The position numbers and the translations under genes are program-made. DNA of 64,000 nucleotides from Mytilus galloprovincialis. Taxonomy: Eukaryota > Mollusca > Bivalvia > Mytilida > Mytilidae. The notes under the pieces are model-generated. The model worked only from the letters and a program-made list of their open reading frames with translations, ran no database searches and had not been told where the DNA came from. This document shows positions 20,005-63,625 of the stretch, in pieces (positions within the stretch are counted from its first letter, which is position 1; the number at the start of each line of letters is the position of its first letter). The stretch lies in contig NC_134850.1 of the NCBI RefSeq assembly GCF_965363235.1, positions 45,194,602 to 45,258,601 on the forward strand. Reading direction: 5' to 3'.

Positions 20005-20071
20005 ATGGAATCGATTGTAATTGACAGTTATCGGAGTTTGACAACCGAAATAGCACTTGGATTATCTGCAG
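20005..20071 (+). CDS. exon 1: start of the death effector domain
   Basis: Encodes MESIVIDSYRSLTTEIALGL and two more residues, ending in phase 1 at the donor (g|gtaaat). The pattern Y-R-x-L-x-x-E-I-x-x-x-L matches helix 1 of DEDs. The paralogous exon at 58966-59032 has the same length (67 nt) and phase and reads MDSVVFDSYRILTKEVALGL. Selection for the same short N-terminus in two loci supports the start codon. Confidence 0.75.
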
Positions 20072-23000
20072 GTAAATGCATGACATCAGAACACATATGT
20101 ACATAATTATGTTGGCTTCAGTCTTTTCCGTCAATGAGTCTTAAAATTGTATGCTGAAATTTGAGATATAAACACTTTTTTTTCAAATTTGTATCAGTCG
20201 ACTTATAGATTTACTTCATTTTGACGAAGTTTATTGAATTAAATAATTTTTCATTTTTATATAACTAAACGATGATTTTTTATATATTACTTATATAATG
20301 AAAAATAACCGAATACCATGAAGTCTTTATACAGGAAAAAGACTTTATCCAGCCTTCCTTTACCTCATACATTGAACCTTATAGAATATTCCCCTACAAC
20401 CCTTTTCATATTAATCCTCGAAAGTGCAAAATCTTATTATGAAATTCAAACAAGAAAAGGTACTTTATTATCGATATTGAAATATATTATTAATTTGTAT
20501 ATTTTAACACAGAAAATAATGAATATCGTCGGTTTTGATATAACTACTTCTTGAACTCATATATCGGCCAATGAAGTTCTATATAGCTTTCAAGAAAGAA
20601 AGAGGATCGATATTATTGGAAATGAAGTGGAAATTATAAAAACAAGTCGACATTACTAACTTAAGATCATTTGTAATGGTATTAGCCAAAAGAAAGAGAG
20701 GCAAAAGATTCTAAAATACATTCAAACTCACAAGTAGAAGCCCATTGGAACGCTTGGTTTAATAGCTTCCTTGTGAGCAGAAACCCGCTATAAAGAAAAT
20801 TATGAAAGGAAACGCAAACCCTGGAATATTATAAAAGATGTACATTCCATATGCAGCCGCCGCTTGAATGCTGCTGTCTAGAATTTTGAAGTTTGCAAAA
20901 AAATTGCTATATACGAAGAATCTATCAACATTCCAAAATTTAAGATTCATAATTCCCATGTATGGTCTAAATTTTTACAGAAATAAAAATTCTTTGGCAT
21001 TTTAGTTGTGTAATGTCATGCATATTTTTTACACGTCTAGTAAATGCTCGCGATTGTTAAAAAGATATTATACGCAGCAATACAGTTACAAAAATATAGA
21101 AACCAAGGAGAACCATATAAATATTGCCTTCTAATTGATGAAACATTATCACTCTTTCATTACTAGTCATAAGTTTATCTGTTGTAGTATTGCCAATGTC
21201 ATAGTTTTCTTATATTTATAGAAAATACTAAGATCATTAAATTTCTAATAAGAAACGATATTGGAAAGGGTGTTCTAGAGAAAATTGTTACAGGAACAGA
21301 TCTTGTACAGCTGTTAGAAGAAAAATGCATACTGTCAGCCGACAACGTTGAACAACTGGTAAAATATCTGCAGACTGCAGGACGTAACGATCTCGGTAAA
21401 AAGGTTCAGCAATATATCGAGTCTGCAATATCCAGGAATCTGTCAAATCATGGCAAGTTTTATATATTTATATATTATATGTTTTATATATAATGTTCAA
21501 GTATTTATAATTTTAATTATGTTTAAGTCATGGAAAATCCAAATTACAGTTCTCAAATAAAATAAAAATGAAAATATGGAATCCTGAAGTTTAAGTGATC
21601 CTTTGTTTCTTTTATGAACGATTGTTTGGGCCTCAACATATTCAACTAAATCAACAAATGACTGACAATTGTAATAATTGTCTTAACAGTAGTGTGTTTA
21701 CAAAAAATATCATGTGCATGGTGATTAGAGTCATAACTTGTTTTATTTGCTTAGTTCACAATTAATATTGTAAAACGACTGGTTTTGCATATAATAAGGT
21801 GAACATTAAGTAATAGGTTCTATAAGTTGTTATATTCTTGTTCTGTTATCATCTTTCTTCTCCTCTTACCTTCATAACCTGAATAGAAAGTTTGGATATG
21901 AAATTTTCATTCGCATTCTAGTATTCTTTTAAAATTGAACAATATAAAAAGGATAACAATCTATTTCAGATTCATAACTGTATATTCTTGAAATTATGTG
22001 CAATAATAAGAAAATTGAGATTATAAATGACTAATTATAAGTAATTTCCACATACTGCGTCCTCATTATTCATATCAGTTATTTGTGTTTAGTTTGTAAG
22101 GAATTATTAAGTTACTAACATTAAGATTTAGTTTCTATATATCTCATGAAGAAAAACAGTTCGGCAATTCTAACTATTTAAAAGTAGGTGACTGTTAAAT
22201 TTCGAAGATGAGGCAAAGTGAAAAAGATAATATCAAAATGCACTAAGCATCCAATTTTACGGACGCCACCACGAGTTGGTTGTCCGTTATGGAATTTTTG
22301 TTTCAGAGATTATATCAGATATGTTCCTTGTGTCTTTACTACAATTCCGTTCACTTTTCACGATTGTCGATTAAAAACATTTTCAGGGTTTGTAATAACA
22401 TGAGCATTACGACGGATGCCACATGTAGAGCAGGGTCTACTTACCCTTTCGGAGCACCTGAGATCAACCATCATTGTTTGGTGGAGTTTGTGCTGCTTGT
22501 TCGTTAGTTTTCTATGTTGTGTCTTGCATGTGTCTTGTGTACTATAATTTGTCTATTTGTCTTTTTCTTTTTTAGCCATGGCGTAGTCAGTTTATTATCG
22601 ATCTATGAGTTTGAATGTCCCTCTGGTATCTTTGGTTTCTCTTTTTTATCCTCCTGTATCTTTGTAAAATCATCACACATCACTGGTATTTATTTAAATT
22701 GATACGCACATTGTAAAAAGTAGCAAAGTGAAAAATTTTGTTATCTTTTGTTGTAAACTCAATTATCGCAAAAGAAGAAAAATGTTCCTTAAATTTACCT
22801 CTATTGTGTGTTGCACATTTGTAGATTACTTGATAAAAGATTTGGTGACATTAGTTAGTTATCTGATAGAATGACAATTTTCTTCCAGTGACTGTGGGGA
22901 ATTCGATACCTTATATTTTTAGATCTGTAAATAAAACCAATTTGAATAAGTATTAAACAATATACGAATACATTACTTGTATCGCTTCCATTTACCAGTC

Positions 23001-26000
23001 GAACAGTAACTTGTCTTTTCGGTGTATAAGTAAACGAAAGACATAGTTTATTGATTTAAATATTTCTATAATTTGAATATCTACCGGCATTTCATTTTTT
23101 TTAAAGTGTATTAATGTCGTTGAAATGATTTTTTTTTTATTATATGTTACATGTGTTATTAAAATCCAAAATATTCATTCTGTTCTGTTGAATTCTTTAA
23201 GTAGCACTTCTGAATATAAACATAATCCAATGGCCCATGCCAACTCCTTCTACCGCTTAAAATGTGCATATTCTTCTATGATTGAATATCCTTGAAAGGA
23301 AATTTCAGAGGTACTACTGTATTGTCCAAACAAAGGGTTGTGCAGCATATTTTTAACCTTTTCTCTTTATATGTCTTGAATATCTACAAGTTTAAACTTA
23401 TACTTAAATATATACTTTCCGTAACTTTGCTTTGAGTCCTTCTGATAATTTGAAGTGTCCGATATGCAACAGTTTGATTTAAATGCAATATGTTTCAATG
23501 CGATGAAACATAGATATCGTATCTAGGAACGAGAAGGTAATCAAAAGAAAATATCTATGAATATCAAATATCTTCACAAAAGAGGCTTAGTTCGTGAATC
23601 AGCTGTATTTACAGATTGTGACCTTTTATTCTCAAGTATAGTATAATTTATACATTTAAATCAGTGAGTAAAAACGACACTTACGGAACCAAATCTACTG
23701 CACCAGATGGCTTTTTGACAATAAATGTATTTATTTTTTTGTGATTTTAGAGGCCAAAATATATTACAAATCCTTAATTCTAACAAAAAATGACAAACTT
23801 ATAAACCAAAAGTAACAAACAATTATAGCCAAAGTCAGGCAATGGGACCGAAGTTTTGCTTGACCGTTCCACAATCTGGTTTGATACACTGATCGGAGAT
23901 TTCAAAAATGCTCTTCATTTATCTTAATTGCCAAGTTGTGTTCAACTTTATCCTGTAATGTTTTTATCAATACCAATGAAAATAATTGTTTTCAATTTCT
24001 GAATTTGTTCTCGTGATGTCATTTAAGAAAGGCGCTTCGGTAGGATGAAATTTACCATGTGTTATTTTGATTTTTTGATTTTGAAGCAGTGTAATTAAAA
24101 TTTTAATTTAATTCTTAAATCTTGAATTTATGTGCGTCTAATTTGCTATTGTATTGGTTGACGTCTTCAAGTATTTAAAATTCTAAGCTACATTGAACAC
24201 CATATTTGATTCCTCACATACATTTATGCTAATTCTAATAACATTAAAGACAAATTAAATAATAGCTATTTCATCATTCATTTTCCAGTACTCCGTGGTG
24301 TCGTTACATATGCTTATGGTCTTTTTGCAATACATTTCAATAATAAGTCTAAAACGTCTGAAGACTTCAATCTCTCACATACTCTAAAATATCTCCAAAT
24401 TTATTGGTTCAAATATTGGTCAACTGACGCAATAACTCCTTTCTTGTATCAACATAATTTGGTGAAATGTTTGTGAAAATAAAATCAATAATCTAATAAT
24501 ATTTATAACGATTCATTTTTGTTTTAGATTACTATAGGTTGCATGGAATGCATGTAATTGAACAATATACTGAAACGTCAGAATACCGACAGTTATGTCA
24601 ACATATGAAAGCTAACAATGCAGTTATTTTGAAAGGTATGTAATCCACAGTTTACGCATCGTAAGGAATTCAATTGATATCTGAAATGATACTTATCAAG
24701 CACATATTTATCAACAATGGAATTGACCATCTAAGGAAACCGTGAATTATTCAGAATAACTGAAACAGATCTTGACATTTTTCATTGCAGTAATTTCAGG
24801 CATTTAAGAGTTGTTAAGTTTAAAATTACCGTTTCAGTAACAGTAACAGTTACTTAGTACTGGTGTTTTAAAGTTTATTATGTCTTTCCTCCATTCTGTA
24901 TTTATTCTGATTATTGTTTTTATTCCTCTGCCAAATTTCAAAACCTGGTTTGTGGTTTCGAAAGATGTCGCTTAGATATTTGGCATCTGACATCGAACAG
25001 CTATTGATTTTGCTTTTGAGACTGACCCTGCTCAGTCGAAGACTTTTTATTGTAAAAGCTATCTCCACAAGCACTGTTGTTTTGTGGTGAGATCTCCTCC
25101 GTAACTGTAAAAGAAAGCGACAAATTTATCTAACCAAATTGCTCGCTATATCATCAGGATGTTTTTCCAATTTTGACGGAGGAGATACGGAGACTACATA
25201 TGAGAGTTATTTCCCCAAATGCGTTTGAAATAAGTGATTTGTATTTGGAACTGGTTAACAATAAGTGATAGAGATCTAGGGTCTGTTGATTTGAAGTCCT
25301 TGGTCCGAATAAAGGAAAAGTAGGTCAAGGTCTAAGGTAAAGGTATAATTCTAAATTTTGACTGTTCCTTGTTTCAATATTTCCTCTGTCAACTTTAATT
25401 TCGGGTCCTCAATACTCTTCAATTTTGTATTTGTTTGGCTTTTTAACTGTTTTGATATAAGCGTCACTGATGAGTCTTATGTAGACGAAACGCGCGTCTG
25501 GCGTATTAGATTATAATCCTGGTACCCAGGGTTTCCCCTGGATCAATTATTTTTTTCGCGACCTCTTTCGCCAAAACAATATATTTTTCGCCACTTTATT
25601 AATTTTTTCGCCAAGTAACATAAATATATTTTTCCTGTTGTGCCCTTTTGTACTAAGAAGTAATTTTTACATCAAAACAAAAGCTTTTATCACATGAAAT
25701 TGATCCCTCATTTCATGTGTAGTCATTACATTGGAGGGTTACTCTCATTCGAGGGGTTGTTCCCAGCCTTTTGGATAGATTTTTTCATAACGACAGTTTT
25801 CTTTTCTTGACCATCGTAAATGAAAAAGTTGAGACGTACAACTATGCTTGAAACATGTACATGTGTCTCTCAAACGCCTTTATTAAAGTCAAAGGATAAA
25901 AGAGTTAAACTTTTAAATCGGAGATTTTTCTCGCTTTTGAACAATTTTCGTCACAACAACAGATTTCTTTTCAAAACTATCTTTAAAGGGAGAAATGTCA

Positions 26001-29000: not shown

Positions 29001-32000
29001 AAAAACACATCATTATCACCAAAACACAATTTTGTCATGAATCCAACTGTGTCCTTTGTTTAATATGCACATAGACCAAGGTGAGCGACACAGGCTCTTT
29101 AGAGTCTCTAGTTTTAGATATGCATACATGAACCTATCATTTGAGACTGGAAGTGAATTTTACTAAACGGGAAGTACATTATATCTCTCATATTATTATG
29201 AGTTTGACTGTCCCTTTGGTATCTTTCGTCCCTCTTTTACAGGCAAAGTATATAGAACCTATATATTTTTGAAATCAGTGTGAATAAAGCTATCATGTAA
29301 GACCGGAAGTAAAAATTTTTTTACCGGAAATTGTCGAATATCTCCCTTATTACAGGCATAAATATATAGAAACATTTATTAATTGGTATAATGAAACCTA
29401 AGCTTGGACGTCAAAAGTAACTCTGAGTAAATCTAAAGTAGATTCTCATCAATAATTTATAAAATTGATGTGGACAGGTTTTCAATTTGTTTTTTAATTT
29501 CCTTTTGTTTATATCATTAGTTTAACAAAAAAAAATATACAAGTCATCATGTGATCTGTTTCAGAATTTTTGTGCGGATTAAATCAATCAACAACATTGG
29601 TCTTCTGTCTGGCACCTTTTATTTTAAACATCTTATACTGTCAAAATTCTCACAATTAAAGCTATTACATATATTATTTTGACTAAAAGAACAGTTCCAA
29701 AATGAATATGAAAATGAAATATTGATTAATTAATATTCATCCGTCGCTTTCAAATATTGTGACCTGAGCGTTCCTAATGAAGGTTAATCCAGAAAAGCGC
29801 GTCGAACGCATACTATTTATAACGTGCTGTTTTCATTTACACAGAACCGGTTCATTACCTCTGCTGATGGACTATCGTCAGCCCAGTATTCGGAAATTTA
29901 TTATTTATTCTAATTAATAAACAGTCTTTTTAAAATTATCCATTACTAAATTTATAATTGTTTGAAAAAAGGTTTCAACTCCATAAGGCAAAATTTGACT
30001 TTGGTTGATTTCGCAATTTTTATCAGGTCCTTATTGTCCTTTTTGGCACTATAGCTCTTCAACTGTTCCCGTTGTGGTAATCCTTGGCTTTCAAATATTC
30101 TGCTTTGAGCGTTCCTAAAGAAAGTAACTTCATAAAACAGTTTTGGACGCATTACATTATAACGTGCTGTTTTAATTTTTTTTGCTGCTTATTTGACAAT
30201 ATTTGTTAAAAGAAAGGCGAAGGTTACCAAAGGGGTATTTAATCTCATGAACCGGAAATAATTTTACAACGCCATGACTTGACTCGATCAATATTTAAGT
30301 TTGTCATAAGACTCTTCATTGTACCATGCTAATCATTGTGTACACAAGACGAAGCTTTCTTTTACAATGCTTTTAACTTGTGATGCGCAATATAGTTAAA
30401 GGCCCAATAAAAAACGAAACTGAAGAACATTGATAAACCAAAATTACGAAATGTTTTTCCAAATGCTAATGTTTTGTCATTCTTATTTGTCTTGATTTAT
30501 ATCTTTTGACCTTGGTTTTGTTTGTTTAATTGAACTTTTGATGTGATTTTCTTTTAATCTTAAATTTTATTTACCAATGAAAAATACGAAATGTCGAAAA
30601 CTGAATGAATAGAGACTGGGTTGACACACTTCACAGAACCACATATTTACATTCAGACATTTCAGATACTTGAAATCTAAAGACAGTTTAAGAAAGACGT
30701 CTCGTTTGTCTAGTGTTTACGACAACCAAAATAAAAGACAAATAAGTTTAATAAGTATTTGGTGTTTAGTATGGCGTTCATACTTGCTGAACTAGTATAT
30801 ATATATGTATTAAGGGGCCAGCTGAAGGACGCCTCCGAGTGCGGGAATTTCTCGCTGCATTGAAGACCTATTGGTGACTTTCTGCTGTTGTCTGTTCTAT
30901 GGTCGGGTTGTAGATCTTTGACACATTCCCGATTTCCATTCTCTTTATTATAATAACATATTTACGTGAAGTAGTTTCCAAAAAGGTTGAGAAATTAAGA
31001 TAAGATAAATCTACAAACTGGATATTTACAAATGAAGCAATAAAAAACAACAAATATCGATATAAAGGCTACTAGTTATTACATAGATATAGGAAGATGT
31101 GGTGTGCGTGCCAATGAGACAACTCTCGATCCAAATAACAATTGATAAAAGTAAACCATTATAGATCAATGTACGGCCTTTAGCACTGAGCCTTGGCTCA
31201 CACCGAACAACAAGGTATAAAGGGCCCCAAAATTACTAGTGTAAAACAATTCAAACGGGAAAACCAACGGTATAATCTATATAAAAAAACGAGAAACGAG
31301 AAACACGTATAAATTACATAAACAAACGACAACTCCTGTACATAAGATTCCTGACTTAGGACAGGTGCAAACATTGCAGCGGGATTAAACGTTTTAATGG
31401 TACCAAACATTCTCCCTTCTTCTGAAACAATAGCATAACATCACAATATAGACAATCACACGATAACATAACCATAAGTATAGTGAGACGGGAATATAGC
31501 AATTATCAACTTTATTAGGAATGAGATGTAATTTATCAAATAGACACTTTTAGAAAGCTCCAAATGATAGTGAAGATTATCAATAGACAAATATTTGTTT
31601 TCAAGAAATCCTGGGAATTTTGGGGAAAGATGTGGTTTAGATTTGTTGCGGCAAAATATACTTACAATACGGATTATTTTAATCTTTGCACATATTTTTT
31701 CATTAATTACAGGTCTACCAGGAACATGGAAGTCACGGCATGCTTTTAGATATGCACACGAATTTTCAAAATTGAGGGAAAAGGACAATAATTCATTAAT
31801 TTGGCGGATAGATTGTAATACTGAGTTAAATATCTATAATTCGCTTTCCCATTTAATGAATTTCTTAAAGATACAATGCATCAACTCAGAACTGCAGATA
31901 AAAGATACGATCAACATTATGTTATTGCGCGCAGTTGCAGTTTTGGAAAACGACAATTACAAGGATACAAGACATCTTTTTATTCTGCTTGGTTTCATAT

Positions 32001-35000
32001 CCCCACAGAAAATCCTTATCAAAACGTTCCTGGAGACGTTGAATCAGTATGACAACATATCTATCATTGTAGCTACGAGCGAATCTTTATCCAATGACTT
32101 CGACAACATTGTTCTTGAACTTCATGGAATGACAGAGGATGAGGCTGTAAACTATTTAGAAGTTGATGATTCGGTACAAGAGAAAGCAAAAGAATTGGCC
32201 AAAAAATTGAGCTACTTGCCAGATGGTCTTGCATTTGCCAAAACGTATATACACACAACAAAAATAAGCATAGGCAGTTACCTTGAACGACTTGAAAGCA
32301 GAGACGATTCTGCTTCTAAAAGTGCTTGTAAAATGCTTATTGTACAAGCGGAAAAGAATATGTCGGCCGACGAAAAAGATATTCTGCACCTCATGTCATA
32401 TTTGAACACAGATAATATACCTCTCTTCATTCTTAATTCTCTTTTGCCCAAGACATTAGAAAAAGATGAAAAGAAAATAATAATGGACAATTTTCTCCGA
32501 ACCTTAGAAAAATATTCTATGATTGTAATTAAGGGCAATGATGAGCAGCGAGTAATAACTGCTCATGGATTTACGTTCATGGTTATGAAAGCATCAAAGA
32601 CTAGTACCGAACGAAATTGTCATCTGAAGAAACTTCTGAATTTCTTTATGTGTTTTATAGATCTAGATGCAAGATTGTTAGAAGTTATTCACAGAAACGT
32701 TCTTTTATTAGAACATGCAGAGGCCTTTTTAGCACATTATGAAGGTGATTTCCCGTCTTTGTTACATGAAACGAAAGCAAAACTTTGCTATATATATTGT
32801 GCAGTAGGGATCACATATAGATTGTATGGAAATACTGAATTGTCCGCTAATACGTACCTAGAAAAGGCAAAACACGCTATGTATGACACATTCTTAAGTG
32901 GTCTGCAACACCAGTTTTCCGATATTAAGAATGAAGATCCTTACAAAACAATGAATGATTATCTAAATGGAAGCGAAGTACTTCAAGGTCGCTGTAAAAA
33001 CATGTTCACGTTGCTGGTTGAAAAAGGGAAAAATCTCCCTCGTGAATTCGTCAACACATTCATAAGAAACAAATATAGAAACTCAAGGATCATTGATCTT
33101 TTCCAAGAGTATGGCAATCTTTGTACAAACGAACTGCAAAATAATCAACTAACGAATGAGATAGTCAACACTCTAAGAGGTAAAAACCTGATCATGGAGA
33201 GTGAATATATTACAGAAACATTTTTAGTCGAACTAATGATTAGGATTCTTTATAATTCTAGTAAGAACAAATGGCTGATGGAAATTTCCAAAGACAGCTT
33301 CTCAAAACCGGAAACGGGGAAATTGCGTTCTAGACTTTCCAGCACATTCTTTCCGGTTACTACAGAAAGCTTAAGGGAACATCAGATAGCACACTGTCTT
33401 ACACAGCTATTACAACAGCATTTAAGTAGCTTCCATACCAGGAACACTGGAAAAACATCCACAACAGATACTGTCAGATCATTTTGTCCTGTTTTCAGTC
33501 CGGTAACACACCGAAGTGGTGTATTATATATGCTGAGATCGTTTTCCGATCCCAAACTGTTATCATCTTTACTTAAAGAAGCGATTGAACTATTGGACAG
33601 CCTCGATTCTGATATAGAAGGTATAGGTTTTACTGAGTTTGGAGTTGTAAAACGTATTGGAGATTCAAGTCTCTTTCATTCCGTAATGATAGAAAGAATT
33701 AAAATGGAATGTTATGAAAAACTATATAAACTAGAATGTATAGATCTGGACACACCTTTGAAAGAAGAAACAAAAAAGAGAATAATCGTCAACAAAACTA
33801 GTCTTTTACCAGAAGAAAATATTGCACAAAGTCAAAGATTGTGCGAAACGGATTTATCAAATATAAAAGGGTCAATGAAAAGCGAAAATGCAAAGAAGCA
33901 AAATATACCAGACATTGAAATTGGTCTTCAAAATGCAAACTTAAAGAAAGCATTGTCAATTGCAGAGGAGCTAGAGAAGAAAATTGACGACCTGACATCC
34001 TGGAAAGCTTTATCAGGAATCCATTTGAAAATTGCTAAAGTGTTTAAACTAATAGAAACAGAGGAGAACATTCGGAAAGCGAAACATCATTATAAAAAGG
34101 CCTACGATCGAGAATATGAAAGCAATAACACAAGAATTACCCGTTTTCATTTAAAGGCAATCATTCATTACGCTGAATGTTGTATTCAGTTTCCGAATGA
34201 GAAAGACTTGCTTAAAGCAAAGGAATTATCGGAAGAAATGAAACATCGATTTCGACTGGTAGAAACTGGTACTCTTTTTGACGAGGTGATAGGAGATATT
34301 GATAGAGCTTTGGTAAGTTAAGGATTTCATTTTTAAGCTCAATACTTTGATCCAATACGTAAGTACATTTAACAATTAGTAGGACGCAGATATTGTTATC
34401 AAAGGTACCAGGATTATAACTTAGTACGCCAGACGTGCGTTCCGTCTACACAAGACTCATCAGTGACGCTCATATCAAAATATTCATAAAGCCAAGTACA
34501 AAGTTTAAGAGCATTGAGGATCCAAAATTCTAAAAATGTTGTGCCAAATACAGCTAAGGTAATCTATGCCTGGAATAAAGAAATTCTTAGTTTTTCAAAA
34601 AATTCAAAGATTTATGAACAGGAAATTTATAAAAATGACCACATTATTGATATTCATGTCAACACCGAAGTGTTGACTACTAGGTGATACCCTCGGGGAC
34701 GAAACATAACAACACACTTCGCATATATGTAATTACAAACTTCAAGCATAGAAAGGCGGTTATATAAGGCAGGTGTTACTTGTGAAAAGGAACGAAGTCA
34801 TCAAACCTTTACCCGCTCACAGCAGACTTGTGTGTACAAAAAAAAATTGTAAAGGAAATCCAAGTAGAATGAATTGTGAAAAAAGAATAATGATTACGGA
34901 AACGTATCCGATGTTGATCCCATTGTTCTGAATTTTATGTATGGCATCATTTTAGATGGCACTGTAGTATTACCTGACCCATAACTGATAATGATAGCTT

Positions 35001-38000
35001 TTTGTTAGGACTTTCACCACTTTTTAGCACTGCCAAAAATTCTACATACACAGTTAACTGAAGAACTTTCATTATACTAATCAGAAATTAATTCGAATAT
35101 ATATCATAACCGTTTACGTTTTTTGCTATTTTTAAAAACCTAAGGCCACTAGTGCTTTTAGGTTTTTAATCATGCAGTTAATACAAAACTACAAACAAAT
35201 CTCAAAAATTCATTTTCACGTGTACGTAAAATTATTTCATATTTTTCTACACCTAATACATCCCTCAGTTTGAGAAAGTATGTTTAGTCGATACTGTATT
35301 TTTTGTCCAATTACACTGTTCAGATACATTGACTTCGATAGGTCACAAAAGAGCAACCTAAATTCTGGAATGCAAATACTACCGTGCTATCTTAAATGAA
35401 GTTGTCTCGTTAAAAGTTATATAATAATAATATTACATGTTATCATCAAAAGGGAAATGTTCTTAAGAATACAAAAATCTGATTTTAACAAAGTGCTTAA
35501 GGGTGTACTTAAGTGAGGTGTTGGAATTTGTGTCAAATGTTCGGATTCCTTGGTGTTTTTTCATACAATAAAATGTAAAATATTTTGCCCCATAACTCAT
35601 TTATTTTTTCATATAAGACTTAATAGCTCATGAAAGGTCAATTACCAAAATTTTAGAAGATTCTTAATTTTCGTTCTTTTGTTTTGAGACCTTATAATAC
35701 CAATGCAAATATAAGGTAAGAGTCCGAGTCAGCCTTTTACCGCCATATTTTAAATCTCAAATATCTCGAAAAGGAGGTCCATGACCTATCAATACTTTTA
35801 GCTTATTTTTACCTTAATTGATGCTCTACCAGCTTATGGTTTCAGTTTAAGCTTCTTAATTTATTAATTTTCACCTAACCTCACCTAAGTACATCCCTAA
35901 AACAAGTTGTTTTTCTTTCTTTCCCATGATTACCCGTTGAATATAAAAAAAAAAGCTGTACATTTTAAGTCATCTCCATATTATTATAGATTTAATCACA
36001 GTTTAATTGAAAGTATTTGAAGTAAAAATGATATTCACGAGGCGTTTATCGATCTTTAGTTGTAATCTTGCATTTATATGCATTACAATAAAATGCATGC
36101 AATCCTTCTGAATTGATAGTACCTTGGTTTGACAACTACTTTTAATTGATAGCAAGTTGTTTTAATTTTTTACAATAATTGCATTATTTAATTTCTATTT
36201 CACAGAAAAAACTCTCCGAGAAAAGGCAATCACGTGAAAAATCTGAAACAAAAGACAAACCAGAATTTGATACCAAATCAATAAAGGAGTACGTACACGC
36301 TTTTGTTAGAAATTTCATGCTATGAGAAATATTAACATGAGGCGCGAGTAATGTCTCGATGACTCTAAAGAAATGTTGCTATTTATATATTATCGCTGGT
36401 CATATCGACAAGACTGATTTTCTCGCTTGAGCCGGTACTTCGAAAGTGAGAAAACCATCCAGTTGAGATGACCAATGATAATCCTTTTACCGCTATTTTG
36501 CCGATGACGACGATGAAATTTATCTAAGGAAAATTTCGTAAAGAGCGAAAATATTTGTTATTTAATTTTCGTTAAATTTCTTTTCCATTGATTACCTTTT
36601 GAGAAACATTCAATAGTAAAAACTACTTCTTGTGTAACCTGAAGACGTGTATATTGTCTAACATGTCTGCAATTCTAGGTGTATTACGAATGAATTAAAC
36701 TTTGCGATAAAAGAGGGACGAAAGATACTGAAGGGACAGTCAAACTCATAATTCTAAATTAAACTGACAACGACATGGCTTAAAATGAAAAAGACAAACA
36801 GACAAACAATAGTACACATGACACAACATAGAAAACTAAAGAATAAACAACACGAATCCCACCAAAAACTAGGGGTAATCATAGGTGCTCCGAAAGGATA
36901 AGCAGATCCTGCTCCACATGTTGCACCCATCGTGTTATAACTTTCATTTATGTACTAAAGAAGTTCTATACATAAAATATTGTCAAGACAAATTTTACGT
37001 ACATATATATATAGGAAGATGTGATGTGAGTGCCAATGAGACAACTCTCCATATAAATAACAATTTAAAAAAGTAAACCATTATAAGTCAATGTACGGCC
37101 TTCAACACGGAGCCTTGGCCCACACCGAACAACAAGCTATAAAGGGCCCCAAAATTTCTAGTGTAAAACCATTCAAACGGGAAAACCAACGGTCTAATCT
37201 ATATAAAAAAACGAGAAACGAGAAACACTTATAAATTATATAAACAAACGATAACTATTGTACATCAAATTCCTGATTTAGGAACTGGGATTAAACGTTT
37301 TAATGGTATCAAACCTTCTTCCTTTTTCTGAAGCAATAGCATAACATCACAACATAGAAATACACACGATAAATTATCAATTGGCAGGCTTAACTCAATC
37401 AAAAAACGTAAATTACTACACTATGAACGAATAAATTTCGATATCTGCGATATCTGAATGCAAATACGCAGTTAATAAAATATTAGGGACAAACATTCAA
37501 GGCCAAAAAAGCAAACAAACAAACAAGTCCAAACAAAGCTAGACACCAGGGCAAAATATTTAACCCTTCATATAGAATAATAGGTAGTTTCGTTTTTGAT
37601 ACTGACTATATCATGTGGAATATCTAGACGAGCCCGTTAGGTATAGTCAGTATCAAAAACGAAACTACCTATCATTCTGTTTATCGGTAATTATGACGTC
37701 ACACAATGTATTGCCATATTTTCAAGGACTTGCTTTCCAACTGATACAGTCAGTACGTTGATACTCGAAAATATTAGGCAGTAAGATCAAAGGAAAAATA
37801 TACGAATTACCGATAAAGGTAAATCTTGACGTTTATACAAATGTAGTGAGTGAAAATTAAAAGATATTCCAAATAATCAAAGCAGGTATATAGACAAGTT
37901 CCATATTAACATAAAAAAAAGCATTATAAACAGTATCAACAGGTAGAATTATCAAGAAAATAGGATTTGAAAGTACTCGCAGCTACTGAAAGCTAGTTAA

Positions 38001-45345: not shown

Positions 45346-45349
45346 TATA

Positions 45350-46459: not shown

Positions 46460-46700
46460 AAAAATACATATTTGCATGTAAATTAGTCTTCATATGATAC
46501 ATTTTATTTCAAACACATCTACTTTACCATGACGAAACAAGGATTTTTCATTTTGCCTATTTTTGGTCTTATAAGATATATGCTTTTGATTTCATTCACA
46601 TCTACTTTACCATGACAAAATAGGGGTTTTTCATTTTGCCTGTTTTTGGTCTTATAAAACATGTGCTTTTGATTTCATGGATTCATAGTAAAAAAGGGCA

Positions 46701-48434: not shown

Positions 48435-48969
48435 CATCGAGTAAGGACCGAGAAGCAAGTCACTCGAGAACAGATCGAGAATTCGTCGAGTAGCGGTCGA
48501 ATTGATCGGGAAAGGATTAACTCGACCAATGTCCGATCGCTTCCAGATCACTGCGACTTCTATATTTATTTTACCACAGACTAACTCGACCAATACCCGA
48601 TCCCTTTGCGACAACATTCGACCACTCTGAAATGATCAGACATTAGTCGAGCAAAGGTCGAAATGATCGAATACTGATCGGAAATTTTGTTGTATTCCGA
48701 CCAATCTCGATCTCTACACGATCCTTTCCCAATCAATTCGACCGCTACTCGACGAATTCTCGATCTCTACTCGAGTGACTTGCTTCTCGGTCCTTACTCG
48801 ATTGTTTTTTACATGTCAAAAACTCTCGAGGAGATGGTCAGATCGATGACGAGGAGGGTAGACTATCCCGAACATCCTTGTCGATTGAGTCAGATCAGTC
48901 TCCCGATCACGTTATTTGTCTTGATCGTGCTTAAACGAGTTGATCTGATCGGCAGTGTGAACATAGATT
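48435..48969. mobile_element. GATCGA-word fold-back element, duplicate copy
   Basis: Duplicate of 41278-41812 with the same arms and the same 'cggcagtgtgaac' right end. Confidence 0.65.
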
Positions 48970-49264
48970 ATTTAATAGGTGGATGTCACATGGTCCAAAT
49001 TTGATTGACTCCCTTTTATCAATACTATATGTGCGATATTCGTCATAAATAGGTAATATGTCGCTCAAGGTTTATATCTATAACCATGATAATAAAGCAT
49101 TTAATAAATTCATTTCGGTGAATTGAATGTTGATAACAGGAACAAATTATATTTGGTTTACGTATCAATTTTCAAAAATTTTGGTTTATTCTATTCTTGT
49201 TTATTTGCTAGCTGTTGTATGATAACTGCATATAATGTTAACTGGTCAAATATTTGTTTTACAG

Positions 49265-49433
49265 TGATGGTGAAAAAGGGTTTTTGGTTGATTTGAAACG
49301 AAAAAGAGATCGGCTCAAAAAGCGTCGGAGTATACTTATTGAGGAGTACAACGAATTGAAAGACGATATCGAGAGGCTTGATTTGGAAATAGACTCGGTA
49401 GAAAAAAAAATCGCTGACATAGAAATCGAATAA
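49265..49433 (+). CDS. second copy of terminal coiled-coil exon
   Basis: Same acceptor, phase and protein as 42108-42276, with the stop at 49431-49433. A transcript reading past the first copy could use it, giving the same C-terminus with a different 3' UTR context. More likely it is a passenger of the tandem duplication. Confidence 0.6.
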
Positions 49434-49490
49434 CAAAAGTCACAGATTAATAAATAACGCTGCAAATTGTGACATTTTTATATTTGTACA

Positions 49491-49679
49491 ATAGAACAGG
49501 GAGGATACCTTAAAATACCAAGAGAAGAAAGATTATGCAAAAACTGTAAGCAAATTGAAGATGAAATGCATTGCTTTTTATATTGTAATAGAAACCATAA
49601 TAATAGAAAAGTTTATTTAGATTTTTTGAAAAATGAAAATATCCACTTTATTTTAAATGTCATGGATAAAATAACATAA
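49491..49679 (+). mobile_element. LINE 3'-end fragment, duplicate copy
   Basis: Duplicate of 42334-42522 with one clear residue change (GRY to GGY) and the same Cys/His pattern. Confidence 0.65.
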
Positions 49680-51062
49680 AAATTATATACTCACCCAATT
49701 TCACACGTGAAGGTAAATAAGCTAGGTGAATTGGCAATTGTATCCCCCCCCCCCCCCATATTTGCAAATGGACGTTCCTGAAATGAATAGTTAAGCGCCT
49801 GTAGAAAGTCCAGTTGAATACATATTTTTTAACACGCTGTAAGGGCGTAAATATATAAGCTTTTTTTTTACTAATCATTAATGAAGTTTTCAATTTCAAA
49901 AAAAAAGAATTTAAAAAAATTGTGTTAATTTATTATAGCTCCTCATTGTGTGGTCTTTACGTCTTGTAATACATGTAAATGACATGTATATCACGTTCTT
50001 CAGGGAGAAACAGAAAATGCCTATTAAACATTTGTTCTGCACTATAAGAGGCTGGAACCTTTAAAAGGGACCAGCAAGTTTGTTTAAAGAAGCCTCTTTG
50101 GAAACATAATGTAACAACAGTTGTATAAGAAAAGAGTATAATCAACAAGAGCATCCTTTTTTTTCTCGCAAAGTTGACCTTATTTTTCGTACACAAATTA
50201 TAACTTTAATTTTAATACAGTGGTTGAAATGAGCAGAAACAGATTTACGGTACCAGGGAACCGCCGCCGTATCAAGCTACATGTAAAATATTTAATGCAT
50301 AGACTTTTACAAGTTCTACTGCTAACGTTATCTTGCTATGGCCCATTTGAAAGTGCCCGGGGCCATGCCAATGACAGTATTCTAGGATATCATTATTTAG
50401 AATGAAACTAGTACTTGTGAAATTCATGTTTAGTAATGTTCATGTCTTATATTTATTAAGAAAAATAAGTTAAATGTGTTCTAACCCGAAATTCAAATGA
50501 TTTCAAGTTTTCATATACTGCTGAACCATTTTATCAGGTGCAAAAAGTGTTGCTAATTTTGACATATCTTTTAGCTTTGAAAGGGGACACGATTTATTTT
50601 AGACCAGCGTCACATATATTTTGTTATGTGAGAGCTTAGACGTATGTCCCTTTCGATTATTTTGAACAGAGAAAAGCAATAATTTGAGTTCTAAACGTAC
50701 TTAATCAAATGTGTCCTAAATATCTCAATTTATTTAGGTGCATCTCAGATTATTTTTTGAACAATCAAACAAAGTATAATTGATGTTCATTTTTTGTTTT
50801 CTCTCTCTCTTGACCTTTTTCATTTGTATATATATTTATTTCAAAGTCTGCCAGTATCTATATTTATGTACAGTTCAATAACTGTATTATTTGATTTGTA
50901 AAAGGATATTTGCTTGTTTCTGAATACTAAATATTTATTTCAACTGTTTTATATTGTTATGTTATGATTTATCTGTCGTGAATGATTATTGTTTAAATTA
51001 ACTAATTGAAAGTACTTGTGATACGTTTTTGTTACAAAATTTAAAACTGAATATAAAGATCT

Positions 51063-51492
51063 AGTTACACTGTCAAGTTTTACTACGTTTTTAAAATTCG
51101 ACGTTTCAACTTTGTTTTGAACAAAAATGTCCCGTTATTTTGAAAACTAGGTTTTACTAGGTTTGTGAGCTAGTACGCTCTTACCACCTTTTGCTACGTA
51201 TATAGTATATGTACGTAAAGACCCACTTTTTCACCGCGCATTGATACGTTTCGATACGTAGTAAGCACGTTTTGTTGCGTTCCACTAAGCTTTGATACGT
51301 ATTTAGTAATACAAGGTTTCTACTTCGTTTCAATTTGCTCTACGTTTGTTGTTGAATTTTCAAACCAAACGGAACAGGTCCAGTTTTGAACTAATGATCA
51401 TTACGTTTCGATACGCTTCGTTACGTATATTCCCGTTTCGCTACTCTTTCAAATCGTAGTAAAACGAAGTTCTTGAAACATGACAGTGTGGC
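51063..51492. mobile_element. TACGTTTCGA-word fold-back element, duplicate copy
   Basis: Duplicate of 43904-44335, including the 'acactgtcaag' end and 'gacagtgtggct' end. Confidence 0.5.
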
Positions 51493-52874
51493 TGGGGCTT
51501 TATAAAGGCTCAAACGCTCCTTGTTGATATATGGAAGTAGTGTACGGAACAATTTGTCTACAATGCAAAAACAATGTTACAAAATTGAATCTTTATTGAA
51601 AAATTATATATTGTAAAATTATATTTTGTGAATGTTGATAACAGTAAATTTCTTATTCATGTTGTAATATATGTATATACTACAAGACCTTATTGTTAAC
51701 TACTAGTTGAAAAAATGTTATCCTGTTGAATGAAAGAAAACAATTATTAATGAATTAATTATTGTTCTTGCATATTTGATTTGGCCAGCTGTCAAATGCG
51801 GCGACGAATAATAGCATGGAAAAGACATGGAATAGTATCGACACAAATATGAATTCTTCAAATATCGACCTAAAATCAAATTGTGTTTTTTGTCGACGTA
51901 GGACATCGCAGGACTGCAATAAAACTATCATAAGACACCTATTGGATATATATATATATTATATAAAAAATCACGAGACTAAATTAAAAACCGATGATCT
52001 TTTCACAAAAATGAATATCCTAACTTACATGTAGGTATACTGAAATTGATTTTTTCTGGTAATATTTGTTTGAGAAATGAGTCACTGAGATGTATTATTG
52101 CAATATAAAAAAGCGAGATTTGGAATGATTGCAAATCTACAACTATCCGTTAGAGTCATAATGACATGTATTTGGTGATTGGCTTAAAATAATCATCGTG
52201 CGGCCTCTAACAATGAGCAAAAATTCATACCGTATAGTCAGCTATAAAAGACCTCGACATGACAAATAATGCAAGTGAAATAACGGTTGGATTAATGATT
52301 AATAATAATATAATAAAACACATGACAGACTCACCGTGTAGAACGCCACATGCGGGGTGTCGGCTTTGTTTGACATGGGGTGGCAATTTTGAAGCGACGA
52401 AAAAGTAACAAGGTAAGTTCAAGCATCAAAATTTCTTATTTTTAGAACTCTCAGTACCATATAATGTATTGCACGGAAGGAATGGCAACATAATCTATTT
52501 CCTGAAAGCAGAAGCAATCGTTTCCAGTGCTCAGTTTTCTCCAACACCTCGCCCTAGTTTTCCGTGTTGCAGATTTTGAGGCTTTATATGCAAATTTCAA
52601 TATAAAAAAAAATACTTTACACAGCTACCCTCCGTATCATTTATATAGAATTGTATTCCTCTCATTGACTTATACCAAATACCAGTTTCTTAGTTAAAAT
52701 TAATTGGTTTTAAAACTGTTATTCATCAAAATATAAAGTGTCGCTCGGGGTGTCAGATTTTGCGTCGCAAGGGGTAGAGGCTTGTCATAAAAAATACATA
52801 TTTGCATGTAAATTAGTCTTCATATGATACATTTTATTTCAAACACATCTACTTTACCATGACGAAACAAGGAT

Positions 52875-55194: not shown

Positions 55195-56400
55195 TTATAA
55201 TGAAAGAGGGACGAAAGATACCAAAGGGACAGTCAAACTCATAAATCTAAAACAAACTGACAACGCCATGGCTAAAAATGAAAAAGACAAACAGAAAAAC
55301 AAAAGTACACATGACACAACATAGAAAACTAAAGAATAAACAACACGAACCCCACCAAAAACTAGGGGTGATCTCAGGTGCTCCGGAAGGGTAAGCAGAT
55401 CCTGCTCCACATGTGGCACCCGTCGTGTTGCTTATGTGATTACAAATCCGGTAAATTGTCTAATTCGGTAGGTCACATTCATGAAAGGGAAGGGGATTGT
55501 AGTTACGACGTAAGGAACATATCCGATATCATTTGTGAAACGGTTATTCCATAACGGTCAACCAACTCGTGATGGCGTCCGTAAAATTTACGAAGGGATG
55601 ATTTCAACTTCACCATTTGGAACTCTTGGTTTAATAGCTTCTTTATGAGCAGTAACCCTCTATCAAGAAAATCATGATAGGAAATGCAAGATAGGGAATA
55701 TCGTAACAATTGGGAGATATATACCCCGTATGCAGGTGCTGCTGGAATGTTGCTACTTAGAAATGGAAAGTTCACAATTGGAAAGTTGAAATCATCTCTT
55801 TTGTCGTAAAGTTTTGTTTTCAACCGACCCTCATTGTCAATTTCTAGATGTAAGTCAAGATAAGAAGCCAACTTAACTGTATCTGTAGTATCCTTTATCT
55901 CCAATTCGATGGGATAGATGCGTTCCACATAGTCACCAAATTTTGAATTGTTTAGTGAAAGAACGTCATCTATATAGAAGAGTTAAAGGATATTGCTAAC
56001 TTCTTATCTTTCTTCCTAAGAAGTTCCTGTATGAAGTCAGCCTCATAATAATAAAGAAACAAGTCGGCAAGTAGAGGGGCACAGTTTGTTCCCATTGTAA
56101 TGCCGACAGTCTGTTGAAAAACACGTCCTCCGAACGTTACAAATATGTTGTCAATCAAGAAATCAAGCATCTTGATATTATCTGTTTCAGAGAATTTTTT
56201 GTTTGAATCAGAGTGATTCTTTACAAAGTATGATTTATCCCTCCCTAAGACAAGATACTTGTATCTACGTTGGCCATTTTGTAAAGTTGAACGTAAAATT
56301 TATAATGAACTACAAATGTAATTTACGAAAGATGATGCAATGTCGTTCTATCTTGTGCAGACATCGTAGGTTAATCAATATTGTGAGGCATTTCAACCTT
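55195..56400 (-). mobile_element. RT-bearing retroelement 3' part (family 1)
   Basis: On the - strand, 55970-56170 has FVTFGGRVFQQTVGITMGTN, then CAPLLADLFLYYYE (RT palm), and 55503-55928 has SYLDLHLEIDNEGRLKTKLY and PAAPAYGVYIS, ending VSQMISDMF. The frame runs straight into the tail (55195-55500) that is scattered through the window at 12725, 22258, 29200 and 36710. It is broken and 5'-truncated. The RT is of the GIPMGTN type common in bivalves; Penelope-like or other non-LTR, not settled. Confidence 0.75.
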
Positions 56401-58965: not shown

Positions 58966-59032
58966 ATGGATTCAGTTGTGTTTGACAGTTATCGGATTTT
59001 GACAAAGGAAGTAGCTCTAGGATTATCTCCAG
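58966..59032 (+). CDS. exon 1 of the right-hand gene
   Basis: 67 nt encoding MDSVVFDSYRILTKEVALGL and two more residues, ending in phase 1 at g|gtaaaa. Same length as 20005-20071. Confidence 0.75.
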
Positions 59033-62000
59033 GTAAAATTAGCTTTTGCATTAGGGTTAGTTCATACTTATCTTCCCAATAAATACATATAATTGTCACT
59101 TTTTTTGGCGAAAAACGATAAAAATTTAACCAATTTGACCTAATAGTAGCCGAAAATGATTGTTTGACGCAGGACGGTAAAAGACATTCCAACTATCTAG
59201 AAGTAGTAATAGAATTCACTGCGTAAAATTTTTATGGAATTTTATCAATTTTAATTTGAAATTTTCAGAAAATATCAAGGTCATTAAATTTCTTATAAGA
59301 GATGTTGGGAAAGGTGTTCTAGAGAAAATTATAACGGGAACAGATCTTGTACAACTATTAGAAGAAAGATGCATGTTGTCTGCGGGAAACGTGGAACAAC
59401 TTTCAAAGTTATTGCAGCTTGCAGGACGTAATGACCTTGATAAGAACGTTCAACAGTATGTTGAATCAGCCATTTCTAGGAATCTGTCAAATCATGGTAA
59501 GTTTTTAAAACTTTATAATAGCAGAAAATGTGAGTACACTAAGTAAAAGTATCCGTCCTTGGTCTTATTTAGAATTTAGAATTTTCATCATAAAAAACAA
59601 GATAGAGGTATTCTAGTAATATTGTGGACAACCGCAATATTTATGTTGGTTGTACTACTGAATCATTTAGCTTTTACTTATTTGTCATGGGCTATCGATA
59701 ACAACGATTCTATGCTCAGTCTGTCAGAGGTCTTCCAGTGGAGATTTAAATAGATTGATAGAGTTACGTTCATGCATGTGCACGAGAAGAAGAAAAGAAT
59801 GTTTAAGTATTCAACATTAAAATCACCGACAAGTTTTATTACTCTGCTACTTATTCGTATTATTTGACTTATGCGTTTAGAACCTTAAAGTTTGGCGACC
59901 ACATAGTTTAAATGTCTATAACGATGTGATACTTCAGCGTTACAGAGAAACTCGCAACTTTTCTAACCTAGTCAATTGAAATCATGAGACGTAAAGAAAT
60001 GGTCCCGTCAACATTATGAAAACGATTCAATATTCATAATTCAGCATATATTTCAATTGACAGACATATGGGTACCATATAATCGTTCAATCTGCAATAG
60101 AAAAAATACTATAGAATATCCTCATTATCAAAAACTTTTCAAATGTAGATTAAACTTGTTTTATTTGAGATCTCATAGACATAACTTTTGTTCATATACT
60201 TTATAGGGTTATCGAATTGTTTCATATTCTTCATATCGGGACCTTTTATAGATATACATGTATATCACTCCTAATCCGCGAAAATTGGAAGGACATCGAA
60301 AAATATTCTTAACTATCTAAGATCTTTCCCGAGCCACCTATACTGGCTTTCTGTAGTCCCAAAAGCCTTAAAAGACTACAAATGCTGTGTATCTGCTACA
60401 GTGTAAATGTCTTAAATTTAGCAAAATGGCGAGTCATATCAGTTATTTCATTTAAGAATTGAATGCTGCTTTTTGTAAATTTATTGGGATGTAAAAGCGT
60501 TGACCGAATTACATTTTGTATGAAGCGCGGAAGCGCTTCATACTAAAAATGTGCGCACGGTCAACGCTTTTATAACCCTATAAAGTTACAAAAAGAAGCA
60601 TTCAATACTTATAATTACATTTTTTTAGCTAGAATCATGAAAACACGATTTTTATCAAGTTTTCATTTAATTTATCTGTGCACTTTATTGTGGGACCTCG
60701 TGTCATCATGAATGATAAATGTTATTGTCTAATACAATTGTTTCAGGAATAGCACGAGATGTGCAGTTGGCCAATCAGAATAACGTATTATAATGAAACA
60801 TACATCTAATGTAACTATAAACGAATGAACGACCATCGTAGCGACTATAAATGCAAACTAGACCTTCATTCAGTCGATTTTCAAGATCCCCTTGCCACAT
60901 TAAGGCAGATCTCAATCAAATATACCTTTGTCAATCCCCCCCCCCCTAATCAGTACCAAATTGCGTTTAACTTAAGATGTTTAAATTTGCAGATTGTTGG
61001 ATGTTTGTTTCATTGACATTATACCACATCTCTGTGTTTCAATATTATGCAGTCAATGAACTTTGGTTCCTTCGCAGTAGGTCTTTACGAGTTGTGGCAG
61101 GTTTTGGACGATATCAATAATTGAATGTATGACGAAAGTCTGAAAACGTACTCGATCTTTAACCTAACATATGAAAAAATATCAATATGTCAACAAGATG
61201 AGTTACAAGTCTAACATACTTGAAGGTGATAAAGCGAACAAAACACTTATGTATTTGTTTTAAAAATAACCTTGAAACATTCCTGTTGTTAACGTTAACG
61301 ACCCCAATGATTTCCACAATGTCATGACGATTTTACAATATACTAGTATCATATAAATTGTTTGCCTTTACTTAAAAATCAACCGGATATTTGATTACAA
61401 GTAAGATTAGTATTGATTTAAGAATACTGTAAAACTTGTGATTTATTTTGGTCAATCACTAATGAAAGTGAAATAGTTAAATTATAATTCGCGTTTAACA
61501 GCCTGAGTGTGTCAAAACAAGCTAAGAAAAATCGATGAAGAATTTTCCACATGCAAGTGAATAATGCGACTACATCATATCTGTATTCATGTGACCTTCA
61601 ATTTAAGCCCTAGGCTAGAAATGGACAAGATGTGTTCAGTTATTAAATGATAAATAATGTCAACATTGAAAGTGAATCAAAAGTGCACACGCTGAAATGT
61701 CTCGCCTTCTGTACATTGATATTATGTTGATAGTCCTAAATATACAGCTTTATTACAACTGTCACATAAACTTAACTTTAACAAAAAAACTAAACATTGA
61801 CAAATGATCCATGAAAATGAGGCCAAGGTCAGATGAACCATGCCAGGCAGGCATGTACAACTAATAATTCTTCCATACAACAAATATAGTTGACCTATTG
61901 TTTATAGTTAAAGAAAAATCAGACCAAAAAACAAAAACTGAGCAATGAACTGTGAAAGTAAGTTCAAGGTCAAATAAAACCTGTGCGACTGACACATAGA

Positions 62001-63625
62001 TCTTAAAAGATTTCCATACACCAAATATAGTTGACCTATTGTATATAGTATTAGAAAAAAAGACCAAAACTCAAAAACTTTAACTTTAACCACTGAATCA
62101 TGAAAATGAGGCCAAGGTCAGATGACACCTGCCAGCTATACATGTACACCTTACAATCATTACATACACATGCGGGAATTTCTCGCTACATTGAAGACCT
62201 GTTGGTGACCTTCTGCTGTTGTTTTTTTTTTATGGTCGGGTTGTTGTCTCTTTGACACATTCCCCATTTCCATTCTCAATTTTATACCAAATATAGTAGA
62301 CCTATTGCATACAGTATACGAAAAACAGACCAAAACACACAATCTTACCTGTAATCACTGAACCATGAAAATGAGGTCTAGGTCAGATGACACCTGCTAG
62401 TTGGACAGGTACACCTTACAGTACTTCCAGACAACTAATATACTAGACCTATTGCATATAGTATCTGAGATATGGACTTGACTACCAAAACTTAACCTTG
62501 TTCACTAATCCATAAAATGAGGTCGAGGTCTAGTGAAAACAGTCTGACGGGCATGAGAACCTTGCAAGGTACCACATACCTAATATAGTTATCCTGTTCT
62601 ATATAATTAGAGAGTTAGAGAGAATCTAACACTTCAAACAAACTTACCTTTTTTCAAGTAGTCACTGAACCATGAAAATGAGGTCAAGGACATTATACAT
62701 GTGACTGCCGGAAACTTCGTAACATGAGGCATCCATTTGTCAAGTATGAAGCATTCAGGTCTTCCACCTTCTAAAATATAAAGCTTTTAAGAAGTTAGCT
62801 AGCGCCACCGCCAGTCAGTTCCCCTATGTCGAGCTTTCTGTGACAAAAGTCGCAGGCTCGACAAAAACTGTAAAACATTTGATTCGATCTACAAAAACAA
62901 TCTAAAAAATATATATAGTTTTGGTTTTCTTTTTGTGTGACTACATGAATACGAGCCATTTAAAAAGTTGTCCATCCTATACTTTAACACCTTATCTGCA
63001 TATGACTGTTTTTGTTTTTTTTTTTAATTTTAACAATCCAATGGTGGCGGCGGCGGAGTAACTATTTATTTGAAACTACGTATTTCTGAATAGTTATCAA
63101 AGGTACCAGGATTATAATTTAGTACGCCATCCGCGCGTTTCGTCTACATGAGACTAATCAGTGACTCTCATATCAAAATATTATAAAGCAAAAAAGTACA
63201 AAGTTGAAGAGCATTGAGGATCCAAAATTCCAAAAGGTTGTTCTTAATACGGCTATGGTAGAAGACCTACATGTAGATGTTTTAAACCTTTACGTGTTAT
63301 GAAGTTTCCGTTTCTCATATGTCCATTTTTTTTGGCTATAAAGTTCACTGACTGATACGATTCTGATAAATTCTTAACGTTTGTATATTATGCTTTGCGT
63401 ATTTCCGATTAAGTTAAATCAATGTGATTTAGCTTTTGAATATGCCTTTCGATAAGAGACTATCCGTTTTGAAATGTTCTCGGTGTTCGGTATTTTGTTA
63501 TTTGTATCATTTTTCAGGTTATTACGGGTTACATGGAATGCACGTTACTGCTAATTATGAAGAAACAAATGATTACCATTTATTGTGTGAACACATGTCA
63601 AGGAAAAATTCTGTTATTTTGAAAG
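58966..63625 (+). CDS. second DED gene of the family, exons 1-3 (continues beyond the window)
   Basis: Exons 58966-59032, 59269-59496 and 63518-63625, all with the same phases as the complete gene. They encode a DED (about residues 6-87, with GRNDL) and the linker ending SVILK|G, where the P-loop would follow. About four fifths of the DED residues match the first gene. The large NB-ARC/TPR exon must lie right of 64000. The start has a good context (gccATGG). The expected role is as for the paralog. Confidence 0.75.
59269..59496 (+). CDS. exon 2 of the right-hand gene: DED core
   Basis: 228 nt, phase 1 to 1, acceptor 'attttcag', donor GTAAGT. Encodes KFLIRDVGKGVLEKIITG, LVQLLEERCMLSAGNVEQL and AGRNDLDKNVQQYV. 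It lacks one residue relative to 21222-21452 and has a standard GT donor. Confidence 0.8.
60456..60609. mobile_element. hairpin MITE
   Basis: Outer arms 'attgaatgctgctttttgta' and 'acaaaaagaagcattcaata', inner 'aaagcgttgaccg'/'cggtcaacgcttt', and at the centre 'gtatgaagcgc'/'gcgcttcatac'. Almost the whole element folds on itself. Confidence 0.7.
61780..62700 (+). repeat. degenerate ~150-160-bp tandem repeat
   Basis: Six units carry 'catgaaaatgaggccaaggt'-type text (near 61812, 61945, 62099, 62363, 62510, 62669) followed by 'caaatatagttgacctattg'. One unit is interrupted at 62165-62280. Strongly diverged, so old. Confidence 0.65.
62165..62280 (+). repeat. family-4 repeat tail inserted in the tandem array
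   Basis: 'tgcgggaatttctcgctaca' to 'ccccatttccattctcaatt', homologous to 30838-30955. It splits the array unit just before 'accaaatatag'. Confidence 0.65.
63091..63258 (-). mobile_element. truncated antisense retrozyme copy
   Basis: The reverse complement contains the hammerhead block (63124-63167), with stem II and GAAA kept but core CTGATTA and the cleavage triplet altered, followed by 'ggtacctttgataac'. Only about half a unit. Confidence 0.55.
63518..63625 (+). CDS. exon 3 of the right-hand gene
   Basis: 108 nt, phase 1 to 1. Reads GYYGLHGMHVTANYEETNDY and onward, ending SVILK plus g at a GTATGT donor. Same length and borders as 24528-24635. Confidence 0.75.

Follow-up and report, generated by a model that had tools for sequence, protein, structure and literature searches.

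A mussel cluster of death effector domain proteins with a STAND-type module that has lost its nucleotide-binding motifs

What does a protein do when a death effector domain (DED) is joined to a STAND-type module, and does that module work as a switch? The question is raised by a stretch of 64,000 nucleotides on chromosome C13 of the mussel Mytilus galloprovincialis (C13:45194602-45258601, in a genome of 1.385 Gb), here called ‘the window’, whose positions serve as coordinates below. An earlier note on this DNA had described a tandem family of proteins with the order DED, NB-ARC-like, TPR-like and coiled-coil, and had suggested a platform for death or immunity, with novelty as an inference. We find a DED and a STAND-type ancestry in the complete gene of the window (copy C), together with the loss of both Walker motifs from every readable copy of its cluster; judged from sequence, the cluster proteins are probably nucleotide-independent DED scaffolds or modulators, and not ATP-switched apoptosomes.

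Searching the genome with the ‘big’ exon of copy C (exon 4) placed eight copies, A to H, at 45.19-45.39 Mb of C13, such that the window covers part of a cluster of ~200 kb, along with relatives dispersed over six other chromosomes (C1, C2, C7, C8, C10 and C14). Four of the eight copies (A, C, F and G) retain an intact big exon, whereas B is a 3' fragment, D and H are interrupted and E is heavily decayed. This exon (31713..34312, +) opens with GLPGTWKS, has FILLG in the place of Walker B, and runs on through a winged-helix-like part to a TPR-like C-terminal part. The Walker A pattern, GxxxxGK[S/T], is kept by all 12 of the dispersed relatives extracted and by none of the six cluster copies that can be read (A, C, D, F, G and H), where the glycine before the P-loop lysine, present in 12/12 dispersed members, is tryptophan (GTWKS) in 6/6; the reading frames were chosen with a pattern that permits either G or W at this position, which matched in all 18 loci, with none dropped. 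Walker B has fared no better, as its acid is found in 12/12 dispersed relatives (D in 11, E in one) and in 0/6 cluster copies (L in five, Q in one). Scanned across the genome with at most one mismatch, the DNA pattern for GTWKS-x-HAF gave six sites, all within the cluster, and its reversed control gave none. With both the P-loop glycine and the Walker B acid gone, the nucleotide switch is predicted not to operate, and a platform that works in the way of an ATP-switched apoptosome is not supported.

The loss does not have the look of recent decay. Our family alignment, drawn from this one genome, comprises 17 members (five cluster copies and the 12 dispersed relatives); copies H and E were excluded from both alignment and tree, and H was used solely for the P-loop and Walker B readings. 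In a tree from which the motif columns had been omitted, the five cluster rows form a single clade with support of 100/100. Among the dispersed relatives, the C2 gene is the most similar to copy C (37%), and the tree does not order the fork that joins C2, the cluster and five others. Ratios of non-synonymous to synonymous substitution (dN/dS) are 0.24 for C-G, 0.16 for C-D and 0.22 for G-D, with the interrupted copy D entered as far as its break; for the remaining seven of the ten pairs synonymous sites are saturated, with proportions of synonymous and non-synonymous differences (pS and pN) of 0.76-0.83 and 0.24-0.31, respectively. The DED exon gives a dN/dS of 0.09-0.28 in five of its ten pairs (three of them with dS near 2-3) and is undefined in the other five. 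This pattern of substitution indicates that purifying selection is acting on the cluster. Since the cluster is one clade, since dN/dS is low, or pN is low where pS is saturated, and since the five aligned cluster copies all have the same G, T, W, K and S in the P-loop, the loss of the motifs looks to have been single, old and maintained by selection.

To speak of a ‘lost’ switch presupposes that the module once belonged to the STAND/NB-ARC family, and here the case is made mainly via the relatives. The 12 dispersed members match an NB-ARC profile built from eight other genes of the same genome at 98.8% (E=6e-17), in a comparison run without an unrelated control profile, and the cluster in turn matches the dispersed relatives with E=9e-119 across 754 columns. 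Pfam, applied to the 17 big exons, returns AAA_22 in seven and NB-ARC in one, and once the linker is joined to the big exon NB-ARC rises above its cut-off in two of the eight members scanned. A histidine in the winged-helix part, H285, which we take to occupy the MHD-like position of STAND/NB-ARC proteins, is unchanged in 17/17 aligned members. The nSTAND3 profile (PF20720) also finds a partial likeness: its first ~45 positions, covering the linker strand and the P-loop, are alike in the eight other members examined and below cut-off in copy C, with the match ending by profile position 49 of 155 in seven of the eight and reaching 96 in the C2 gene.

Several results weigh against this assignment. 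The cluster on its own matches the NB-ARC profile weakly (47.7%, E=0.00019) and the copy C protein has no Pfam NB-ARC match, so that the fold of its middle part comes to us by way of its relatives. AlphaFold2, run on the single sequence, reached a pLDDT (its per-residue confidence measure) of 38 for the nucleotide-binding part, from an input that included ~7 intron residues before exon 4, and of 42 for the C-terminal part, usable only in the last ~120 residues. From these sequence comparisons taken together, and mainly by way of the relatives, we conclude that the middle of copy C does descend from the STAND/NB-ARC family, as the earlier note had proposed. When the 17-member alignment was used as a profile against the PDB, seven chains came up with E-values of 0.14-0.79, among them P-loops of helicases, part of NUP93, and AfsR. 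The sole Pfam match to the big exon alone, RE_NgoFVII, lay below cut-off (E=0.004) and was judged spurious.

The N-terminal DED is more readily recognised. Exon 2 of copy C (21222..21452, +) matches PF01335 with 57.5 bits by itself and 59.6 bits when joined to exon 1 (cut-off 35.9), over profile positions 1-80 of 82, and the nearest PDB chains are DED2 of cFLIP (E=3.8e-7) and then FADD (E=6.9e-5). It bears the R-x-D-L signature that had first been noticed, as RNDL; the motif is present in four of the five cluster DEDs (RNDL in C and D, RHDL in A and F). Copy G carries CHDL, without the arginine, which is a point against the model that we prefer below, and among the readable dispersed DEDs the motif occurs in C2 (RIDL) and in 0/5 others (C8 and four on C10). 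A Pfam scan of copy C shows one DED stretch only and no caspase domain, nor is a CARD matched; the DED occupies its place.

This order of domains recurs at other loci. A same-strand DED match lies within 15 kb upstream in 12 of the 17 aligned members, where ~0.004 would be expected from 43 such matches in 1.385 Gb (a figure that treats tandem copies as though they were independent, which they are not); 11 of the 12 reach the Pfam cut-off and the other, at 35.2 bits, falls just below. A Pfam DED was not found upstream of the remaining five (C7, two at C10:12 Mb, C10:88 Mb and C1); a second look gave a weak DED-like frame at C7 (E=1.3e-4) and, for the other four, spanned ~6-8 kb upstream. Given so great an excess over expectation, the DED-STAND order is a trait of the family and not an accident of the copy C gene model.

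That model was rebuilt from the window sequence and reproduces the earlier one exactly: six exons join into 1085 residues with zero internal stops, AG at 5/5 acceptors and GT at 4/5 donors, the other being GC (21453), where copy D has GT at the matching donor. Exon 1 (20005..20071, +) provides the start codon and the region of DED helix 1, adding profile positions 1-14, such that the Pfam match grows from 15-80 to 1-80 on joining it to exon 2, which ends at the GC donor. Exon 3 (24528..24635, +) encodes the linker and the first STAND strand, ending VILK|G; a similar linker precedes eight other loci (E<=0.013), is weak in three, and was not found in the searches upstream of the C7, C1 and C10:43.35 Mb members. 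The nSTAND3 profile spans the exon 3/4 join in 8/8 other members that were joined and scanned (A and F from the cluster and six dispersed relatives), above cut-off in three of them, and in copy C the match across this join is weak (15.4 bits, cut-off 27.2). Exon 5 (36206..36288, +), of 83 nucleotides, resembles exons located 3' of copies D and H. Exon 6 (42108..42276, +) holds the tail and the stop codon. A search with it turned up five places in total at E<=0.01, its duplicate and same-strand exons that lie 3' of copies D, G and H. It missed the weaker counterparts in A and B, which local alignment within the window recovered, so that divergent tails among the dispersed relatives could likewise have escaped; the tail of copy F was not seen. 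The extension of the DED match, the nSTAND3 likeness across the exon 3/4 join and the recurrence of exons 5 and 6 behind other copies make the joins credible. A four-exon model of 1004 residues ending at 34321 was dropped, as exons like 5 and 6 occur 3' of other copies. Rfam, at gathering cut-offs, gave 0 matches.

What follows the STAND-type part is less clear. The TPR-like character proposed for it is weakly supported: TPR_19 is matched in one of the 17 big exons, and comparison of the predicted C-terminal fold brought up 14-3-3, SNAP and designed helical proteins alongside TPR proteins, without singling out TPR. Copy C has no WD40 match up to E=1 in Pfam, where the region has no other firm identification, and none to NACHT or LRR at the same limit, which divergent repeats could escape. 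The tail, by comparison with shuffled sequences, is coiled-coil-like as had been predicted; the heptad spacing of hydrophobic residues seen in copy C was reached by 0 of 5000 shuffles, and that of the D, H, G and A tails by 2, 15, 114 and 153, respectively.

Synthesising these findings, we propose a tentative model, plausible rather than established, in which the cluster proteins combine a DED with a pseudo-STAND scaffold that does not cycle ADP/ATP, and either join DED assemblies or tune their motif-intact paralogues. A cluster protein would stay outside the ADP/ATP cycle and act as a constitutive or ligand-gated scaffold, docking into FADD/caspase-8-type DED assemblies; alternatively, it may co-assemble with motif-intact DED-STAND paralogues and so set their threshold. 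As to direction, we lean slightly towards dampening, in the manner of FLIP, over a lowering of the threshold. In the parts of the two papers drawn on here, NLRP3 made dead in Walker A/B (six changes, including G231A) is poor at triggering ASC specks (PMC9633759), and NARY, in which Walker B and MHD are degenerate and the P-loop is kept, does not trigger cell death (PMC12405136). The same texts hold observations that tell against dampening, as reduced hydrolysis by NLRP3 accompanies more ASC specks (PMC9633759), and the Walker B and MHD motifs of plant executor NLRs are often degenerate, with mutations there often autoactivating (PMC12405136). More boldly, one might see in these genes the metazoan equivalent of the inactive STANDs of bacteria: an old mussel clade of DED-pseudo-STANDs, kept by selection, whose members act in trans without need of nucleotide and, in the manner of FLIP, modulate the DED assemblies that their motif-intact paralogues and caspase-8 build; we offer this as a conjecture, and a doubtful one.

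Of the alternatives, the one that fares best is that the proteins are nucleotide-independent activators, in which a ligand on the TPR-like region, or oligomerisation of the tail, brings the DEDs into line and starts a filament of the caspase-8 type, with no ATP step involved. The conserved DED, with R-x-D-L in 4/5 cluster copies, and the tail exons that the cluster copies have in common fit it, as do the autoactivating plant NLRs (PMC12405136) and the more numerous specks of NLRP3 with lowered hydrolysis (PMC9633759); the silence of NARY and the poor signalling of Walker A/B-dead NLRP3, from the same partial sources, speak against it, and we regard it as possible without expecting it.

A second alternative holds that the tryptophan-bearing P-loop is an altered yet working nucleotide site, given for instance to tight, non-hydrolysing binding. 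In its favour, all other P-loop residues, K and S among them, are invariant in the five aligned cluster copies. A bulky side chain right before the lysine would, however, fill the phosphate pocket, and the Walker B acid has been lost as well; we consider this unlikely. The earlier note's own model, a normal NB-ARC-type switch that builds an apoptosome-like wheel, has homology to NB-ARC/STAND proteins in its favour, and yet the two residues missing from 6/6 readable copies make it improbable. Slighter still is the chance that an inactive STAND serves here as a nucleic-acid receptor, a role proposed for bacterial inactive STANDs in the portion used of Kaur et al. 2021 (PMC8195603), since none of the analyses made pointed there. 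Finally, a decaying pseudogene cluster, as the fragment B and the broken D, H and E might suggest, is very improbable when the main exons of A, C, F and G are intact, pN stays low where pS is saturated, and C-G gives a dN/dS of 0.24.

Returning to our preferred reading of a nucleotide-independent DED scaffold or modulator, how new is such a protein? Less so in its domain order than had been suggested. As far as the text drawn on from Zmasek et al. 2007 (PMC2246300) goes, Nematostella has a DED in CARD's place beside NB-ARC, and some Apaf-1/CED-4 homologues have TPR for WD40; in the part consulted of another paper (PMC2575513), DED-NACHT receptors occur in amphioxus, sea urchin and Nematostella. 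With DED-NB-ARC, TPR-for-WD40 and DED-NACHT all in print, the mussel order varies a type already described. The cluster shares with the invertebrate Apaf-1/CED-4 homologues of the former source a death-fold domain N-terminal to an NB-ARC-type STAND, and differs in that Walker A has lost its glycine and Walker B its acid, and in its coiled-coil-like tail, with copy C having neither a CARD nor a WD40 match in Pfam. In common with the DED-NACHT receptors it has a DED that leads straight into a STAND NTPase; theirs is NACHT, whereas that of the cluster is NB-ARC/nSTAND3-like, and the excerpt at hand (PMC2575513) mentions no inactive clade for them.

Two further comparisons concern the predicted inactivity itself. 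Like c-FLIP, whose DED2 is the nearest PDB chain, the cluster protein couples a DED to a partner domain that is, here by prediction, catalytically dead; it has one DED where c-FLIP has two, and its partner domain is of STAND NTPase descent where that of c-FLIP is a caspase. Bacterial iSTAND and iSTAND2 proteins, as described in the portion used of Kaur et al. (PMC8195603), are alike in having a STAND domain whose NTP motifs have eroded, within a protein of death or immunity; they belong to MoxR-vWA ternary systems, in contrast to an animal protein with a DED, and according to that portion the well-studied STAND systems of eukaryotes offer no functional precedent for the bacterial inactive STANDs. 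Among the matches listed in a literature search that left subscription journals mostly outside, none described a mussel family with DED and NB-ARC, or an animal STAND that is inactive and carries a DED, and a maintained pseudo-STAND clade of this kind appears to be new to the literature. Its value may lie in the natural set that it forms, of motif-less DED-STANDs and 12 motif-bearing relatives in one genome, which makes possible a direct comparison of what the nucleotide switch contributes to an animal death-fold scaffold.

Elsewhere in this genome, NB-ARC frames of 412-1436 residues (C10:51662477, 51695802, 51766211 and 51909623) flank a cluster of myticin antimicrobial-peptide genes (C10:51.838-51.884 Mb) on both sides; frames and myticin genes share the region C10:51.66-51.91 Mb, and the genome holds 17 matches to PF10690, the Myticin family, which fits a mussel, as myticins are not known outside mussels. 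The nSTAND3 domain seems very abundant genome-wide, with 682 first-look candidates, of which 22 were scored and 22/22 lay above cut-off.

The other family loci in the window are incomplete, as the earlier note had it: besides copy C there are the last exon of one copy, a truncated three-exon copy and the start of another. Copy A, the upstream neighbour, has its body immediately left of the window and contributes its last exon, corresponding to exon 6, at 457..610 (+) by local alignment. Copy B consists of a 3' fragment of exon 4 (2438..3147, +), a probable exon 5 of 98 nucleotides with donor CA|GTAAGT (4291..4388, +) and an exon 6 found by local alignment (5906..6059, +). The choice of its exon 5 was made on position, phase and splice sites and not on similarity, which is weak (score 22, tied with other candidates). 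Copy B is the product of a 5.45-kb tandem duplication that starts inside the big exon of copy A, and not an independent gene: positions 3209-5025 of L013 equal 2441-4257 of the window at 99.8%, and the flank 1-2438 equals 5450-7900 at 99.1%.

This is one of two duplications within the window which, together with the spread of copies A-H along C13, bear out the tandem growth of the family. The other has a period of ~7.16 kb, with 40302-44533 equal to 47457-51693 (99.3%) and 45346-46544 to 51674-52874 (99.1%), the later unit being short by ~0.8 kb. It gives copy C two last exons of identical protein sequence, the second of which (49265..49433, +) is a possible alternative last exon; the event (40302-46544 / 47457-52874) is either recent or an assembly artefact. 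Fragments resembling reverse transcriptase lie at 39431-39703 (-) and 55503-56299 (-), with the motifs GTNYAPL and YLDDI / YIDDV; Pfam RVT_1 matches the former with E=0.006 at best and the latter not at all up to 0.01.

Copy D begins with exon 1 at 58966..59032 (+), followed by exon 2 at 59269..59496 (+), a DED with RNDL (PF01335, 50.4 bits), and exon 3 at 63518..63625 (+); its big exon lies past the window end and is interrupted in the assembly. Adjoining exon 3 there is a short tandem array (63788-63978), with units of ~21/42/60 bases that are ATGCAGTGGTCACAACATATA-like.

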